Assembly (NCBI RefSeq): GCF_002750975.1
Contig: NZ_PEJS01000001.1
Span: 186,001 to 250,000, forward strand
Length of the DNA: 64,000 bases
Reading direction: 5' to 3'
Source: Stenotrophomonas indicatrix
GTDB taxonomy: Bacteria; Pseudomonadota; Gammaproteobacteria; Xanthomonadales; Xanthomonadaceae
The notes under the pieces: generated by a model
What the model was told of the DNA's origin: nothing
Seen by the model: only the letters and a program-made list of their open reading frames with translations
Databases searched by the model: none
Part shown: positions 1 to 52,234 of the stretch, piece after piece
Numbering within the stretch: position 1 is the first letter of the stretch
How the letters are laid out: the number at the start of each line of letters is the position of its first letter
Translations under genes and position numbers: made by a program

Positions 1-105
1 GCTGATGATCCGGCGCATCGCAAGTACTGGCATGGCACTGATCGGATGCTGATCAACGCGGTCTTCTTCGGGAATCTGGTGAATCCGAGTAAAGCGCGGG
101 GTTGA
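1..105 (+). CDS. C-terminal end of an unidentified protein (partial)
   Basis: The first 34 codons of the window read open in frame 1 and end at a TGA at 103-105, closing with the residues NPSKARG. The visible part contains KYWHGTDRMLINAVFFGN, which I do not recognise as any family. The start lies upstream of the window. The left palindromic composite begins about 30 bases after the stop, so this is probably the last gene of its transcript. Whether it is a gene tail rests only on the open frame running into the window edge. Confidence 0.45.
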   Translation, partial: ADDPAHRKYWHGTDRMLINAVFFGNLVNPSKARG

Positions 106-135
106 GGCATTACGCGCCGAACTGACGCTGGGATT

Positions 136-239
136 GGGAGGACGGATGGGCCGCGCAGGACACGCCGCAAGTACGTCCGTGTAGGCTCGTAGGCGCCATC
201 CATGGCGCCTGCGGTCCTGCGCGGCCCATCCGTCCTCCC
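136..239 (+). repeat. 52-nt-core hairpin, left member of composite 0
   Basis: A perfect 26-bp inverted repeat (136-161 pairs with 214-239) encloses a 52-nt core at 162-213. The core starts acgccgcaagtacgtccg and ends with the small palindrome ggcgccatccatggcgcc. The same core, also 52 nt, recurs at four other places in the window, each time inside arms of related but usually different sequence. This copy is in the forward orientation, and its partner at 393-579 is inverted. It lies between a gene tail and rhlE and has no coding potential of its own. Confidence 0.9.
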
Positions 240-289
240 CAGACAGTTTCCTGCGGGCGCGGATGCATCAAACCCAAGGCGGGAGCAAG

Positions 290-329
290 GGCAAAAGCAA
301 AAGCTGGAATTCCGGCTTTTGCTTTTGTC
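290..329. repeat. Hexamer-type hairpin in the middle of composite 0
   Basis: A 20-bp stem (290-309 with 310-329) is centred on AATT and built from tandem units close to AGCAAA on one side and TTTGCT on the other. The only two non-Watson-Crick pairs are G-T. Related hexamer arrays form the outer wings of the two other composites. A few T residues follow, so it could also stop transcription from the gene at 1-105, but the T run is poor. Confidence 0.7.
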
Positions 330-392
330 TTTGAATTGATCCTTCTTCTCTCGGCTACCCGGCGGGACAAGTAGGCGCTGGAAATGTCTGAA

Positions 393-579
393 GCGTTGGG
401 GAGCGGGGGCGGTGCAAAACCGCAGGCGCCATGGGCCCGAGGCATGCCCCGGGCGGGTTGGGCAGGACGCCCAACCCCGGTCTTGCCGTGTGCGCAGGAC
501 AGCGCACACGAGCAAGGCGCCTACGAGCTTACATGGATGTATCTACAGCGTGTTCTGCGTCGCCCCCGCTCCTTAACGC
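393..579 (-). repeat. 52-nt-core hairpin, right member of composite 0, with an insertion
   Basis: The 28-nt arms at 393-420 and 552-579 pair with several G-T wobbles and one A-C mismatch, so they are less perfect than in the other copies. Read on the minus strand, the core starts acgctgtagatacatccatg and ends ggcgcctgcg like its relatives. It is 131 nt instead of 52 because about 79 nt interrupt the small ggcgcc palindrome. It is inverted relative to the hairpin at 136-239, completing the head-to-head pair. Confidence 0.8.
455..516 (+). other. Two adjacent hairpins with AGGAC loops inside the repeat insertion
   Basis: Hairpin one has a 9-bp stem (455-463 with 469-477) and loop AGGAC. Hairpin two has a 9-bp stem (487-495 with 502-510), extended by CTTGC/GCAAG, and loop AGGACA. 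GGA in a hairpin loop is the known recognition feature of CsrA/RsmA proteins. No promoter or terminator is evident, so calling this an RsmA-sequestering RNA would be speculation. The stems themselves are exact. Confidence 0.4.
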
Positions 580-624
580 CCACACAGAACCAACCGCGTG
601 CTCTCACACCGGGTAGCCAGCAAC

Positions 625-652
625 AAAAAAGGACGGCGCGTCAGCGCCGTCC
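625..652 (-). terminator. Intrinsic terminator of rhlE
   Basis: On the minus strand a 9-bp stem GGACGGCGC/GCGCCGTCC (631-639 with 644-652) with a 4-nt loop is followed directly by six T residues (630-625). It lies 49 bases beyond the rhlE stop codon. Confidence 0.85.
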
Positions 653-701
653 CTCGATAAGCCCCCCGCGCAGCGGGAGACGCCGTCCCTGTCAGCTGGG
701 A

Positions 702-2117
702 TCAGCCGGCGCGACCGCCACCCTGGCCGCGGCCACGGCCGCCACCACTGTTGTTGCCGCCACCGCGACGCTGGCCCTGACCGGCACCTGCGCCTGCGCG
801 CTGCTGGCCGTTGCCGGCGCCCTCGCGGCGGCCACCGCCGGCCTTCTTCGGGCCTGCATGGGCATGACGCGGCGCATCGCCGTGCGGACGGCGCGCGTGG
901 GTCTTGCGCGGCACGCGCTCGCCGGTATCGGCCTCGGCCTTGCCCGGAGCACTGTTGCCCCAGCGGATCGGCGTCTGCAGCTCGAAGCCCGGCACATCGC
1001 GGATGTCCATGTCGCGGCCGAGCAGGCGCACGATCGCGCGCAGCAGCTTCACTTCATCCTGCGCCACCAGCGAAATCGCTTCACCGGTCGCACCGTTGCG
1101 GCCGGTACGGCCAATACGGTGCACGTAGTCTTCGGCCACCATCGGCAGATCGAAGTTGATCACCTTCGGCAGCTCGTTGATGTCGATGCCGCGCGCGGCG
1201 ATATCGGTGGCCACCAGCACGGTGACACGGCCAGCCTTGAAGTCGCCGAGCGCACGCAGGCGCTGGCCCTGGCTCTTGTTGCCGTGGATCGCCGCGGTCT
1301 TGATGCCGGACTTTTCCAGGAACGCGGCCAGCTTGTCGCTGCCGTGCTTGGTGCGGGCAAACACCAGGGTCTGCTCGCGGCTGTCCTGCGCCAGCAGGTG
1401 CAGCAGCAGGTCGCGCTTGCGGCTGCCATCGACCGGGTGCACCTTGTGGGTGATGGTCTCGGCGACGGTATTCTTCGGCGTGACCTGGATCTGTTCCGGG
1501 TTGCGCATGAATTCCAGCGCCAACTGGCGGATGTTGTCCTCGAAGGTGGCCGAGAACAGCAGGGTCTGGCGGTTCTGCTTGGGCAGCTTGGCCAGGATGC
1601 GCTTGATCGAGGGCAGGAAGCCCATGTCCAGCATGCGGTCGGCTTCGTCCAGCACCAGCAGTTCAATGCCGGACAGGTCGATGCTGCGACGCTCCAGGTG
1701 GTCGATCAGGCGGCCCGGGCACGCAACCAGCAGATCCACGCCGCGACGCAGGATGTCAAGCTGGTTGCCCATGCCGACACCGCCGTAGATGCAGGCGCTG
1801 GGGATGCGCAGGTACTTGCTGTAACCGCGCAGGCTGTCATGCACCTGGGTGGCCAGTTCGCGGGTCGGTGCCAGGATCAGCGCGCGCGGCTTGCGCGGGC
1901 CGGTGCGCACTTCCTGCGAAGCGGTGCCCAGGTGCTGCAGCAGCGGCAGGCCGAACGCGGCGGTCTTGCCGGTACCGGTCTGTGCGCCGGCCAGCAGGTC
2001 GCGACCGGCCAGCACCAGCGGGATCGCCTGCTGCTGGATCGGGGTCGGGGTTTCGTAGCCCTGCTCGGCGAGCGCACGCAGCAGGAAGGGCGCAAGGCCC
2101 AAGGATTCAAAAGACAT
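702..2117 (-). CDS. rhlE: DEAD-box ATP-dependent RNA helicase RhlE
   Basis: This 471-residue protein unwinds short RNA duplexes with ATP and in other bacteria acts in ribosome assembly and RNA turnover. The N-terminus MSFESLGLAPFLLRALAEQG is a Q-motif region (PTPIQQQAIP near 25-33). The Walker A variant AQTGTGKT lies at 45-52, PTREL at 84-88, DEAD at 157-160, SAT at 189-191 and HRIGRTGR near 327. After about residue 385 the tail is low-complexity Gly/Arg/Ala, typical of RhlE and likely to bind RNA without sequence specificity. The gene is monocistronic, with its own terminator, and is flanked by two palindromic composites. Confidence 0.95.
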   Translation of the reverse strand: MSFESLGLAPFLLRALAEQGYETPTPIQQQAIPLVLAGRDLLAGAQTGTGKTAAFGLPLLQHLGTASQEVRTGPRKPRALILAPTRELATQVHDSLRGYSKYLRIPSACIYGGVGMGNQLDILRRGVDLLVACPGRLIDHLERRSIDLSGIELLVLDEADRMLDMGFLPSIKRILAKLPKQNRQTLLFSATFEDNIRQLALEFMRNPEQIQVTPKNTVAETITHKVHPVDGSRKRDLLLHLLAQDSREQTLVFARTKHGSDKLAAFLEKSGIKTAAIHGNKSQGQRLRALGDFKAGRVTVLVATDIAARGIDINELPKVINFDLPMVAEDYVHRIGRTGRNGATGEAISLVAQDEVKLLRAIVRLLGRDMDIRDVPGFELQTPIRWGNSAPGKAEADTGERVPRKTHARRPHGDAPRHAHAGPKKAGGGRREGAGNGQQRAGAGAGQGQRRGGGNNSGGGRGRGQGGGRAG

Positions 2118-2144
2118 CGAGATTGCTCCAAGTACAGTTAACGC

Positions 2145-2160
2145 CTGTCCGAACGGACAG
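2145..2160. promoter_or_regulatory. Perfect inverted repeat in the rhlE leader
   Basis: CTGTCCG-AA-CGGACAG lies 28 bases upstream of the rhlE start codon, within its probable 5' untranslated region or promoter. It could be an operator or an mRNA hairpin. The sequence shows only the symmetry. Confidence 0.35.
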
Positions 2161-2470
2161 ACGGGGGCAGATCAAACTGATCGGCTGACTCGGAGCGTTC
2201 CCGTGAACCGCGCTGCGAGAATTGGGTGCAGCCAACGCGAAGCGCAGGCTGGAATGCGTGACGAACGGCGTCGGAGTGGGGGCGGGCGATGGGGCGAACC
2301 CCGGTCGCCGGCGATCCCGGAGGGAAACGGACGGCCGCTGCAGACCCGCATAGTCTAACGGAAGGATGAGACCTGACGCAAAACAGGCTGTTCAGGTTGG
2401 GGGTTCGGCAGGGCTGCGCCCTGCACCCGCCGAATCGACGGCAACAGCAACAGCGGGCATACCGTGGGAT

Positions 2471-2572
2471 GGCGGGGTGGGTCCGGTTGCGGGGGCCGCC
2501 GTGAATACGTCCATGTAGGCTCGGTCGCGCCATCCATGGCGCTCACGCCCCCGCAACCGGACCCACCCCGCC
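2471..2572 (+). repeat. 52-nt-core hairpin A1
   Basis: The 25-bp arms are perfectly complementary (2471-2495 with 2548-2572), starting ggcggggtgggtccgg. They enclose a 52-nt core (2496-2547) that begins ccgccgtgaatacgtcca. The arm sequence equals that of the copy at 51312-51413 but differs from the other copies. Confidence 0.9.
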
Positions 2573-2622
2573 TTCGACGGTTTTCCGCGATCTGTCGGAA
2601 TGGCAGGGCCCGCTCCTGGTGG

Positions 2623-2733
2623 GTGTCGACCTTGGTCGACACGGTAGATCCACGCCATGCGTGGATGCTCTTCGTTCAATTGTCGAAATATTCGATTTCG
2701 TTGGAAATTCATCCACGCATGGCGTGGATCTAC
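2623..2733. repeat. SMAG-type REP pair with an attached 20-bp palindrome
   Basis: GTGTCGACCTTGGTCGACAC (2623-2642) is followed by a 23-bp perfect inverted repeat, GTAGATCCACGCCATG... at 2644-2666 against 2711-2733, around a 44-nt AT-richer spacer. GTAG at the outer edges is the signature of the Stenotrophomonas SMAG family, REP elements thought to be moved by RAYT transposases. The copy at 51464-51573 has a spacer of identical length in the opposite orientation. Confidence 0.9.
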
Positions 2734-2756
2734 CACCGTCATCGGGAAACTGTCGA

Positions 2757-2862
2757 GGGCGGGGCGGTATGGGGCTGCAGGACCGTTGGCGCCATGGATG
2801 GCGCCATCGAGCCCCCATGGATGGGTTTACGGCGTGTCCTGCAGCCCCATACCGCCCCGCCC
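2757..2862 (-). repeat. 52-nt-core hairpin A2
   Basis: The 27-bp arms are perfect (2757-2783 with 2836-2862), starting gggcggggcggtatgg. The core is 52 nt (2784-2835), and its minus strand reads acgccgtaaacccatcca. It is inverted relative to A1, and its arms are clearly different from A1's, yet the pairing is complete. Confidence 0.9.
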
Positions 2863-2998
2863 AACCCACAGAAAACCCAGAGCCGGCTGTTGCAGTTGCT
2901 TTCGCGGTTGCCTTGGCTTTGGCCGTTGCCTCTGCCGGTGCAGGGTGCAACCCTGCCGCCCCCTCCTGCGCTAGGGTGAGGCGATGCCGCGCTGCAGC

Positions 2999-3026
2999 TT
3001 GGCTACGCTGCATATTTGATTACACT
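2999..3026 (+). promoter_or_regulatory. Possible sigma-70 promoter for the FAH-maiA pair
   Basis: TTGGCT (2999-3004) and TACACT (3021-3026) are separated by 16 bases of AT-richer DNA. This would place the transcription start about 30 bases before the ATG at 3062. It rests on sequence match only. Confidence 0.35.
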
Positions 3027-3061
3027 TGAAACTTGTTTGCCCACGACTCCGGACACCCACC

Positions 3062-4051
3062 ATGAAGCTTGGTTCCTTGAAGGAAGGCGGCCGCGACGGC
3101 ACCCTGATCGTCGTCTCGCGTGACCTGCGCCACGGCGTGCGCGCCACCGGCATCGCCGCCACCCTGCAGTTGGCTCTGGAGGACTGGAGCCATCTGGCCC
3201 CGCGTCTGAATGCGCTGTATGAGTCGCTCAATGCCGGTGACGCCGATGGCGTGTTCGACCTGGACCCGCAGGCCCTGGCCGCGCCGATGCCGCGCGCCTA
3301 TGAATTCGTTGATGGCAGCGCCTACCTGCCGCACGTCGAGCGCGTACGTCGCGCCCGCGGCGCCGAGGTGCCGGAGAGCTTCTACAGTGATCCGCTGATG
3401 TACCAGGCCACCAGCGCCGGTTTCCATGGCCCGCGCGATGCGGTCAAGGTGGTCAGCGAGGACTACGGCATCGACCTGGAAGCCGAGATCGTGGTGATCA
3501 CCGACGACGTGCCGATGGCGGCCACGCCCGAACAGGCGGCCGGCCACATCCAGCTGATCGGCCTGGTGAACGACGTCTCGCTGCGCAACCTGATCCCGGG
3601 CGAACTGGCCAAGGGCTTCGGCTTCCTGCAGTCCAAGCCGCGCTCGGCGTTGTCGCCGGTGTTCGTCACTCCCGACGAACTGGGCGCTGCCTGGCAGGAC
3701 AGCAAGGTGCACCTGCCGCTGCTGACCCACATCAACGGGACGTGGTTCGGTGCGCCGGAAGCGGGTGTCGACATGCAGTTCAACTTCGCCCAGCTGGTCG
3801 CGCACGCGGCGAAGACGCGGCCGCTCAGTGCCGGCACCATCGTCGGCTCGGGCACCATCGCCAACGAAGACACCAGCAAGGGGGCGTCGTGCTTCGCCGA
3901 ACAGCGCGTGGTGGAAACCCTGCGCGACGGCAAGCCGAGCACGCCGTTCATGTCCTTCGGCGACGTGGTGCGCATCGAGATGCTCGATGCCGCCGGCAAC
4001 AGCATCTTCGGTGCGATCGAGCAGCGCATCGAACAGGCGGCCAAGCCCTGA
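3062..4051 (+). CDS. Fumarylacetoacetate hydrolase family protein
   Basis: The 329-residue protein carries the C-terminal FAH fold: LIGLVNDVSLRNLI, the metal/substrate region ending in GTW, and the late SGTIANEDTSKGASC segment. With maleylacetoacetate isomerase directly downstream it probably performs the last step of tyrosine/homogentisate breakdown, fumarylacetoacetate to fumarate and acetoacetate. I start at the ATG at 3062; an in-frame TTG at 3026 would add 12 residues but overlaps the putative -10. A related FAH-fold hydrolase with another substrate cannot be excluded. The other pathway genes (hppD, hmgA) are not in the window. Confidence 0.85.
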   Translation: MKLGSLKEGGRDGTLIVVSRDLRHGVRATGIAATLQLALEDWSHLAPRLNALYESLNAGDADGVFDLDPQALAAPMPRAYEFVDGSAYLPHVERVRRARGAEVPESFYSDPLMYQATSAGFHGPRDAVKVVSEDYGIDLEAEIVVITDDVPMAATPEQAAGHIQLIGLVNDVSLRNLIPGELAKGFGFLQSKPRSALSPVFVTPDELGAAWQDSKVHLPLLTHINGTWFGAPEAGVDMQFNFAQLVAHAAKTRPLSAGTIVGSGTIANEDTSKGASCFAEQRVVETLRDGKPSTPFMSFGDVVRIEMLDAAGNSIFGAIEQRIEQAAKP

Positions 4052-51186: not shown

Positions 51187-51311
51187 CGTCGGCTTCGGAT
51201 TACGGCAGAGATACCTATTCTGCCAGCCCGGCCGGGGGAGGGGTATCGGCCGGGCGGCGCCCGGCACCCGCCGAATCAACGTCAACGTCAAAAGCGGGTA
51301 TTCCGTGGGAT

Positions 51312-51413
51312 GGCGGGGTGGGTCCGGTTGCGGGGGACGCCGTAAACCCATCCGTGGGGGCTTGGCCGCGGCATCCATGCCGCGGACACCCCCGCAACCG
51401 GACCCACCCCGCC
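51312..51413 (+). repeat. 52-nt-core hairpin B1
   Basis: The 25-bp perfect arms (51312-51336 with 51389-51413) are identical to those of A1. The 52-nt core (51337-51388) begins acgccgtaaacccatccg. Its inner palindrome ccgcggcatccatgccgcgg replaces the ggcgcc version of other copies, with both sides changed together. Confidence 0.9.
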
Positions 51414-51463
51414 TTCGACAGATTTCCGCAATCCATCTGGATGGCGTGGCTTGCTATTGGTAG

Positions 51464-51573
51464 GTGTCGACCTTGGTCGACACGTAGATCCACGCCATGC
51501 GTGGATGAATCTCCGTCGAAATCGAATATTTCGACAATTGAACTTAGAACATCCACGCATGGCGTGGATCTAC
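51464..51573. repeat. SMAG-type REP pair with an attached 20-bp palindrome
   Basis: GTGTCGACCTTGGTCGACAC (51464-51483) is followed by the 23-bp inverted repeat GTAGATCCACGCCATG... (51484-51506 with 51551-51573) around a 44-nt spacer. The spacer is the reverse complement, with some changes, of the spacer at 2667-2710. Confidence 0.9.
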
Positions 51574-51595
51574 TGGCCACCGGGAAACTGTCGAA

Positions 51596-51697
51596 GACGG
51601 GGCGGTGTCGGATTGCGGGGTGTCAGCCGCATGGATGCGGCTGCCAGGCCCCCACGGATGGGTTTACGGCGTCCCCGCAATCCGACACCGCCCCGTC
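51596..51697 (-). repeat. 52-nt-core hairpin B2
   Basis: The 25-bp perfect arms (51596-51620 with 51673-51697) start gacggggcggtgtcgg. The core is 52 nt (51621-51672), and its minus strand begins acgccgtaaacccatccg. It is inverted relative to B1. Its inner palindrome is agccgcatccatgcggct, again changed on both sides. Confidence 0.9.
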
Positions 51698-51776
51698 ATC
51701 CCACGGAATGCCCGCTTTTGACGTTGACGTTGACGTTGATTCGGCGGGTGCCGGGCGCCGCCCGGCCGATCCCCCC

Positions 51777-52154
51777 TCAACCCGCCGGGGGGCAGTACGC
51801 CTTGATCGTCGCCTCGGCCAAGCCTTTCTGGGTGCCGCGTTGTTCGGCGGTGAGCGCGGCATCGGCCTTGCCGTCGCCATCGGTGTCCTGCATCACCGGG
51901 CCGCCACCCTCAAGCAGCGCCAGGTTGGCCCGAGCGGTAGTGCACTCCTTGGGCACCGGCACTGCACTGGCCGCCTCCACTTCTTCCGCCATCGGCGTCC
52001 TGGCCTGGGCACGCGTCTCATACTTTGCCCCGGCCGGCGGCGTTTCCGAATACTGGGTCACGCCCTTGGCGTCCTTCCACTTGTAGACAGGGCCGGCCAG
52101 CGCAGTTGTACTGGCCAACAGCAGCAGGCAACCCAGGCAGGACAGGGCACGCAT
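51777..52154 (-). CDS. DUF4124 domain exported protein
   Basis: A 125-residue protein with a signal peptide (MRALSCLGCLLLLASTTALA) followed by the DUF4124 core PVYKWKDAKGVTQYSETPPAG. The mature part is Ala/Glu-rich with two cysteines (PKECTTARANLAL and AYCPPAG). It is predicted periplasmic. The domain is common in gammaproteobacteria and has no known function. The ATG at 52154 gives a clean signal peptide; an upstream frame would bury it. Confidence 0.8.
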   Translation of the reverse strand: MRALSCLGCLLLLASTTALAGPVYKWKDAKGVTQYSETPPAGAKYETRAQARTPMAEEVEAASAVPVPKECTTARANLALLEGGGPVMQDTDGDGKADAALTAEQRGTQKGLAEATIKAYCPPAG

Positions 52155-52234
52155 GGCAAACTCCGCAGAATGGGCGTAGAACGCCGATTGCAGCATTGGC
52201 GCCGAGCGCTGGCAAGTCGATTAAACTGGATTCC

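Follow-up and report, generated by a model that had tools for sequence, protein, structure and literature searches.

Three blocks of nested palindromes lie in a 64,000-nucleotide (nt) stretch of the Stenotrophomonas indicatrix genome (contig NZ_PEJS01000001.1, positions 186,001 to 250,000; hereafter the window), two of them flanking rhlE and the third near proS. An earlier note on this DNA had described these blocks, and its observation was largely real and is confirmed in part. Each block contains two hairpins of a single family that is present in at least 150 copies in this genome and is spread through the order. Where two hairpins cluster, they almost always stand in one outward-facing order, and they present GGA-containing loops on one strand. 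Taking the evidence as a whole, we lean towards the view that they are dispersed, paired RNA hairpins that resemble the Rfam family TwoAYGGAY (RF01731) and are bound by RsmA.

Hairpin structure, folded strand and loops

Each hairpin, ~105 bp overall, has an outer stem of ~25 bp that leads to a three-way junction, from which two small branches arise. When 63 hairpins from four genera were aligned, 96.5% of cells paired and 25 of the 30 pairs varied on both sides. Covariation was 0.697 as compared with 0.168 in shuffled alignments, none of 500 shuffles scoring as high, and slid versions gave at most 0.105. A second set, 47 model matches drawn from additional genera and families, gave 0.895 and 0.226, in an alignment that had been fitted to the structure.

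The stem mismatches identify the folded strand. Read on the strand of the shared core sequence, they are mostly A.C, with fewer G.T, across the four genera; on the opposite strand, G.U and A.C stand at 226:50 over pairs 1–20 of the outer stem in 260 hairpins, with more G.U in 113 hairpins, more A.C in 21 and a tie in 126. The outer stems of the 63 aligned hairpins show 49 G.U versus 5 A.C, and those of the 47 further matches 28 versus 4. Because the G.U excess is present in both orientations in three genera (24:4 and 30:9 in the genome of the window, G000; 13:0 and 16:0 in genus g20; 48:5 and 50:5 in genus g18), mutation bias associated with replication or transcription cannot explain it. The bias is weak in genus g46 (29:12 and 16:15, together 45:27), perhaps because the stems are shorter there and ungapped pairing overruns them. 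Hairpin copies share descent, so these tests of strand bias are not independent of one another. We are almost certain of the structure and of the folded strand, which is the reverse complement of the core; the core strand itself, on which our covariance model R1 had been built, was overturned as the functional strand by the G.U/A.C bias.

On the folded strand, loop 2 reads C-ANGGAN-G, where the first N may be T, G, A or C. ANGGA was present in 257 of 260 hairpins (153/155, 31/31, 27/27 and 46/47 in the sets from the four genera), a count inflated by a search pattern that included part of this loop. A loop-free finder, applied to the same segments as originally located with the loop-containing pattern, returned ANGGA in loop 2 of 208 of 215 hairpins, several of the seven misses being chance matches, and in branch 3 of 195. 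Loop 3 lay outside the search patterns; it is a hexaloop on a perfect stem in 236 of the 260 hairpins, 221 of these having ANGGA, and 24 have no perfect hexaloop stem in branch 3. It mostly reads CATGGATG, with N often G in other families. The 47 further matches, recovered with a model trained on these loops, keep ANGGA in loop 2 in 45 cases and in loop 3 in 42.

The RsmE/CsrA consensus is a hexaloop, ANGGAN, with a closing C-G pair. Judged by its letters, the ANGGA loop looks like the CsrA/RsmA loop signature, and binding may be expected. The two GGA loops of each hairpin agree with what is predicted for a CsrA/RsmA-binding RNA, in which GGA stands in hairpin loops, usually in pairs; the relevant part of one account describes CsrA sites as generally paired since the protein is a dimer (PMC4333381). 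Covariation, strand bias and loops together give good support to the suggestion, made in the earlier note, of a structured RNA.

Relation to TwoAYGGAY and to CsrB-type RNAs

The layers outside the central repeats had been thought to belong to no described family. This no longer holds, for the hairpins are, on sequence comparison, very probably close relatives of TwoAYGGAY. An Rfam search of the window at the gathering threshold gave 0 matches; at a relaxed threshold, with positions 1–3000 searched, TwoAYGGAY scored 38.8 bits at 2751–2862 on the folded strand, as compared with its gathering cut-off of 43 bits. Other Rfam matches, to microRNA families, Ysr224, isrG and others, were far below cut-off and were set aside. 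In the window's own genome RF01731 gave 0 matches at E 0.001 (strict filters, seven candidates scored), and these hairpins escape the current TwoAYGGAY model; among 20 loci (19 from g20, one from another genus) two g20 hairpins passed the cut-off with 46.0 and 44.1 bits. Like TwoAYGGAY, the window hairpins have two branches whose A-Y-GGA-Y loops lie on a single strand, in the wider form ANGGAY, wider because the second loop base can be any base here. As they fall below the 43-bit cut-off, we file them as TwoAYGGAY-like rather than as members.

In alignment, the two share the outer stem, two branches with AYGGAY-type loops and GUUUACG 3' of the second loop. In the converse search, a second model, R2, scored up to 64.9 bits (L330) on TwoAYGGAY members from other Gammaproteobacteria; three exceeded 50 bits and others were weak. 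Across 369 genomes of the class, RF01731 found matches in 23, in 15 of them over cut-off (up to seven candidates scored per genome). These too form pairs: six face outward, ~225–280 bp apart, two in G476, two in G586 and one each in G679 and G404 (among them G586:C1:460963/461240 and 1853353/1853592, G679:C1:2051941/2052209 and G476:C2:97225/97450), and one runs in the same direction (L338). Since such distant copies also form outward pairs, pairing may be a general property of TwoAYGGAY. In contrast, the window hairpins have a lower second branch that is short on its 5' strand, so that UUUAC bulges, and they occur in about 150 copies per genome, nested with other repeats; the portions of the published TwoAYGGAY accounts that we consulted (PMC4333381, PMC2864571, PMC11661157) describe no such copy numbers, pairs or nesting. 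TwoAYGGAY was reported, in the sections concerned, from human gut sources, gamma-Proteobacteria and Clostridiales (PMC2864571), as an RNA of unknown function and a predicted CsrA binder (PMC4333381). Rfam clan CL00106 unites it with CsrB. A search with a 141-base query at E 1e-5 gave no matches, and a literature search with four loop sequences turned up nothing evidently related.

CsrB/RsmX/Y/Z-type RNAs are the products of one or few genes with arrays of sites. They and RsmU, which derives from a 3' untranslated region (UTR), share with the window hairpins multiple GGA motifs in hairpin loops, but the latter are many dispersed two-site hairpins. RsmU of Xanthomonas campestris is described, in the part of the report concerned, as an RNA with GGA motifs, processed from a 3' UTR, that is bound by RsmA both in vitro and inside the cell (PMC7694677). 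RsmU-type loci were rejected as members of the present family, as no core was found in the eight comEA loci examined. Directly 3' of a comEA-like open reading frame (ORF) in two loci, L272 (G000:C1 near 732 kb) and L270, there is an RsmU/CsrB-like array of CAGGATG hairpins; L271 has fewer motifs. The comEA-downstream arrays match CsrB weakly (18.6 and 22 bits; cut-off 71) and possibly represent a dedicated RsmA-sequestering RNA of this genus.

Copy number, pair order and the blocks in the window

Allowing one mismatch, the core pattern matched 97 times in the window's own genome (4.56 Mb) as compared with 0 times for a reversed-pattern control, which excludes a chance origin of the core. Model R1, a covariance model of 29 hairpins, gave at least 150 matches, in 105 clusters, and the six window hairpins form one family. 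With the orientation of the core written as + or -, the clusters among the matches listed were 44 + -, one + +, no - + and 60 single. A script requiring an outer stem and at most two core mismatches found 155 hairpins in 103 clusters in 100 segments of this genome, namely 48 + -, one + + and 54 single clusters, so that 48 of the 49 two-hairpin clusters are + - and none is - +. The pairing therefore recurs elsewhere in the genome, where its absence would have told against the earlier description. The count of 155 omits one cluster (C2 near 326 kb) and the right hairpin of block 1, whose core is too diverged for the script, so that block 1 was scored as a single hairpin. The raw core pattern also yielded two - + clusters, one - + - and one + - +; the additional hairpins in these carried four mismatches and dropped out under the script's criteria. 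In the other genera, g46 has one - + -, g20 one + + and g18 one + +, one - - and three longer arrays, with no two-hairpin - + cluster in any of the three.

The features of the three blocks are as follows, the strand of a hairpin being that of its GGA loops.

Block 1
136–239, -: left hairpin; outer stem 136–161/214–239, 26 nt, 100% complementary
286–333: central palindrome, arms 88% complementary; not a dimer of repetitive extragenic palindromes (REPs)
393–579, +: right hairpin; arms 393–420/552–579, 82% complementary; insert in tip
431–517 (ends approximate), +: tip insert, in branch 3 of the right hairpin
464–468 and 496–501, +: tip-insert hairpin loops AGGAC and AGGACA, both GGA unpaired in the fold
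533–538, +: branch-2 loop of the right hairpin, ATGGAT

Block 2
2401–2448: left wing, 77% complementary to the right wing
2468–2575, -: left hairpin; stem 2468–2496/2547–2575, 97%
2618–2642, +: REP with GTGGG head, S_sp2/Smal3-like
2644–2666, +: S_sp1-type REP, GTAG head
2711–2733, -: S_sp1-type REP, inverted mate
2744–2756, +: linker GGGAAACTGTCGA, adjoining the right hairpin at its base
2757–2862, +: right hairpin; stem 2757–2783/2836–2862, 100%
2794–2799 and 2817–2822, +: right hairpin loops, ATGGAT and ATGGAT
2916–2963: right wing

Block 3
51240–51291: left wing, 98% complementary to the right wing
51309–51416, -: left hairpin; stem 51309–51336/51389–51416, 96%
51459–51483, +: REP with GTAGG head, S_sp2/Smal3-like
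51484–51506, +: S_sp1-type REP
51551–51573, -: S_sp1-type REP, inverted mate
51582–51594, +: linker GGGAAACTGTCGA
51593–51700, +: right hairpin; stem 51593–51620/51673–51700, 96%
51631–51636 and 51654–51659, +: right hairpin loops, ATGGAT and ACGGAT
51724–51775: right wing, its end 2 nt away from where the minus-strand ORF 51777–52196 stops

The earlier note had assigned one architecture to all three. The two hairpins are common to them, with the core forward in the left and reversed in the right hairpin in 3/3 blocks, as it had stated, but the complete layering of wing, hairpin, REPs, hairpin and wing is restricted to blocks 2 and 3. The mirror linker it reported in two blocks is GGGAAACTGTCGA in these same two. 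Its outer wings stand out in block 3 and less so in block 2, and the inverted-repeat listing of the window has no comparable pair for block 1; likewise, its alternative of a central hairpin or REP dimer resolves into REPs in blocks 2 and 3 and a different palindrome in block 1. Block 1 lies between the end of a plus-strand gene and the 3' end of rhlE, block 2 between the divergent starts of rhlE (702–2117, minus) and an ORF with its ATG at ~3062, and block 3 between the minus-strand ORF ending at 51777 and proS, also on the minus strand. rhlE is thus a single gene enclosed by two blocks. The tip insert of block 1, ~80 nt long, has 10 other copies in the 100 segments and adds two GGA-loop hairpins on the same strand, as seen on folding the block 1 copy; itself built of GGA-loop hairpins, it looks like a separate module.

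The centres of blocks 2 and 3, and no other part of the blocks, show the head, palindrome and inverted doublet that mark REPs and their paired form, REPINs, and a candidate REP-associated tyrosine transposase (RAYT) is encoded elsewhere in this genome. REPs explain the centre alone, as had been proposed. The GTGGG/GTAGG-headed REP resembles the S_sp2 and Smal3 classes without being identical to them; these classes and S_sp1 are given as RAYT-associated in the portion consulted of PMC2817692. At L113 (G000:C1:3362161–3362442) several S_sp1-type REPs lie on both sides of a Y1 (RAYT-type) transposase ORF, likely the RAYT of this REP. The hairpins themselves are not REPs: REPs are 20-odd bp long with a GTAG/GTGG head, whereas the hairpins are ~105 bp, lack that head and stand without these REPs in other genera. 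Single hairpins mostly carry a half-unit, consisting of wing, CAACAG/CAACGG-type tract, hairpin, TTCGACAG linker, GTGGG/GTAGG-headed REP and S_sp1-type REP (read from 22 singles, several without some parts); a full block is therefore two half-units back to back. The same core occurs in three other genera of the family, often in + - pairs and with different outer stems, and none of the 70 other-genus loci (L115–L184) contained the REP types scanned. We therefore infer that the hairpin pair is older and the central REPs a Stenotrophomonas addition.

Of 200 genomes sampled from the order, 55 had matches to model R2; they belong to families f1, f4, f7 and f8 (strict filters, 23 candidates scored per genome), and nine f7 genomes have 9–45 copies each. 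Of the own-genus genomes listed, 10 have hairpins and three have none. The rhlE gene is 95–97% identical to that of named Stenotrophomonas genomes (best four matches), and hairpin matches were found at 4 of 80 rhlE loci, all Stenotrophomonas. The block 2 site is occupied by a pair in L186, by a remnant in L185, by hairpins on a contig ending there in L187 and, in L188 (~2958–3165), by a single hairpin between two inverted wings, an arrangement that could have arisen if recombination between the two hairpins had removed the centre and one of them. At the block 1 site, L186, L187 and L188 have a pair; in L185 the pair is absent and the rhlE terminator is retained. No junction or target duplication was readable at the block-less rhlE sites, where the flanks have diverged.

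Proposed RsmA binding and alternative explanations

In the reading that we favour, a block is two TwoAYGGAY-like RNAs back to back with their folded strands pointing outward, each with a long outer stem, a three-way junction and two short branches with C[ANGGAN]G loops. A transcript from either side would contain first the non-binding complement of one hairpin and then a hairpin presenting two ANGGA loops, to which an RsmA/CsrA dimer would bind. The about 150 copies would act jointly as a dispersed RsmA sponge or, alternatively, would stabilise, in an RsmA-dependent way, the transcripts in which they lie. An outer stem conserved in length and free in sequence would suit release of the tip by RNase III. 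More tentatively, and with less than even confidence, we suggest a distributed RsmA/CsrA sponge of ~150 hairpins in which either transcribed strand of a paired block gives exactly one RsmA-binding hairpin, so that gene-end transcription would show up as free RsmA and thereby buffer, or in part replace, a dedicated CsrB-type RNA in the order. If RsmA binding is correct, Stenotrophomonas and its relatives have >100 candidate RsmA-binding hairpins per genome, as compared with the few dedicated titrating RNAs usually assumed; TwoAYGGAY would gain a role open to testing, in a tractable host, and a repeat family would be tied to a global regulatory circuit. Even without such a role, a structured element matched in 55 of 200 sampled genomes of its order merits a name.

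In favour of RsmA binding, besides structure, strand bias, loops and the GGA hairpins of the tip insert, are the presence of a CsrA-family gene in 18/18 genomes examined, the clan that TwoAYGGAY shares with CsrB, its predicted CsrA binding and the example of RsmU. Several observations weigh against it. CsrA is present also in the hairpin-free genome G029. For block 1 left, block 1 right and block 2 left, half of the hairpins in the window, the minimum-energy fold does not have both loops of the three-way junction open. Transcription of the blocks is itself something that we infer, and singles between same-direction genes have the folded strand in sense and antisense orientation in a ratio of 21:21 (12:18 in the own genome, 7:3 in g20, 2:0 in g18). 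A sponge has no evident need of outward pair order, and single-stranded DNA would tolerate G.T wobble too. Finally, in the part of the RsmU report at hand, RNA with its four predicted GGA changed to AAU still bound, although the complex ran lower, and the tested effects remained (PMC7694677); GGA is therefore not the whole of RsmA recognition.

The earlier note's other suggestion was mobility of single-stranded DNA. In this alternative the hairpin pair would be non-autonomous mobile DNA, akin to a REPIN or a miniature inverted-repeat transposable element, with a transposase recognizing folded single-stranded ends and the loops as its recognition site. We consider this unlikely but deserving of weight. 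The high dispersed copy number, the inverted order, like that of terminal repeats, in nearly all two-hairpin clusters, the recurrence of one 24-mer stem arm 28 times among the 155 hairpins, the named relatives without hairpins at rhlE sites and the association with REPs, which belong to RAYTs, are all consistent with mobility. However, all 27 outer 24-mer arms in g20 differ, indicating that those copies are old and not recently spread; target-site duplication is not established; the other-genus loci are devoid of the scanned REP types; and genome G106 has hairpins and no Y1 transposase match. At L057, the sole ~1 kb pair read, two bare hairpins enclose an aldolase-like ORF and not a transposase, on which ground an autonomous element was rejected, no autonomous copy having been found.

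It is improbable that the blocks are simply structural 3'-end elements, acting as bidirectional exonuclease barriers or terminators with no RsmA role. Gene contexts, called with a crude gene finder that relies on codon usage, was trained on 33 ORFs of the window and was applied to the other genera too, go some way towards it, in counts that stand without a genome-wide background of intergenic types: convergent, same-direction and divergent clusters number 39, 55 and 9 in the own genome (n=103), 13, 3 and 0 in g46 (n=16), 7, 13 and 2 in g20 (n=22) and 14, 11 and 0 in g18 (n=25). Few clusters are divergent, and in 12 of the 13 convergent g46 cases the left hairpin starts at most 27 nt from a stop codon. 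Such a function leaves unexplained the near-invariant ANGGA with its free N and the additional GGA hairpins of the tip insert; moreover, block 1 adjoins an ordinary T-tailed rhlE terminator and block 2 sits between divergent genes. That perfect stems are a mere functionless trace of template switching at quasi-palindromes is very improbable. Outer-stem changes within the own genome are nearly always two-sided, which speaks for it, but the core and loops recur across families, and correction of this kind would be strand-neutral, yet the mismatches are strongly strand-biased in three of the four genera.

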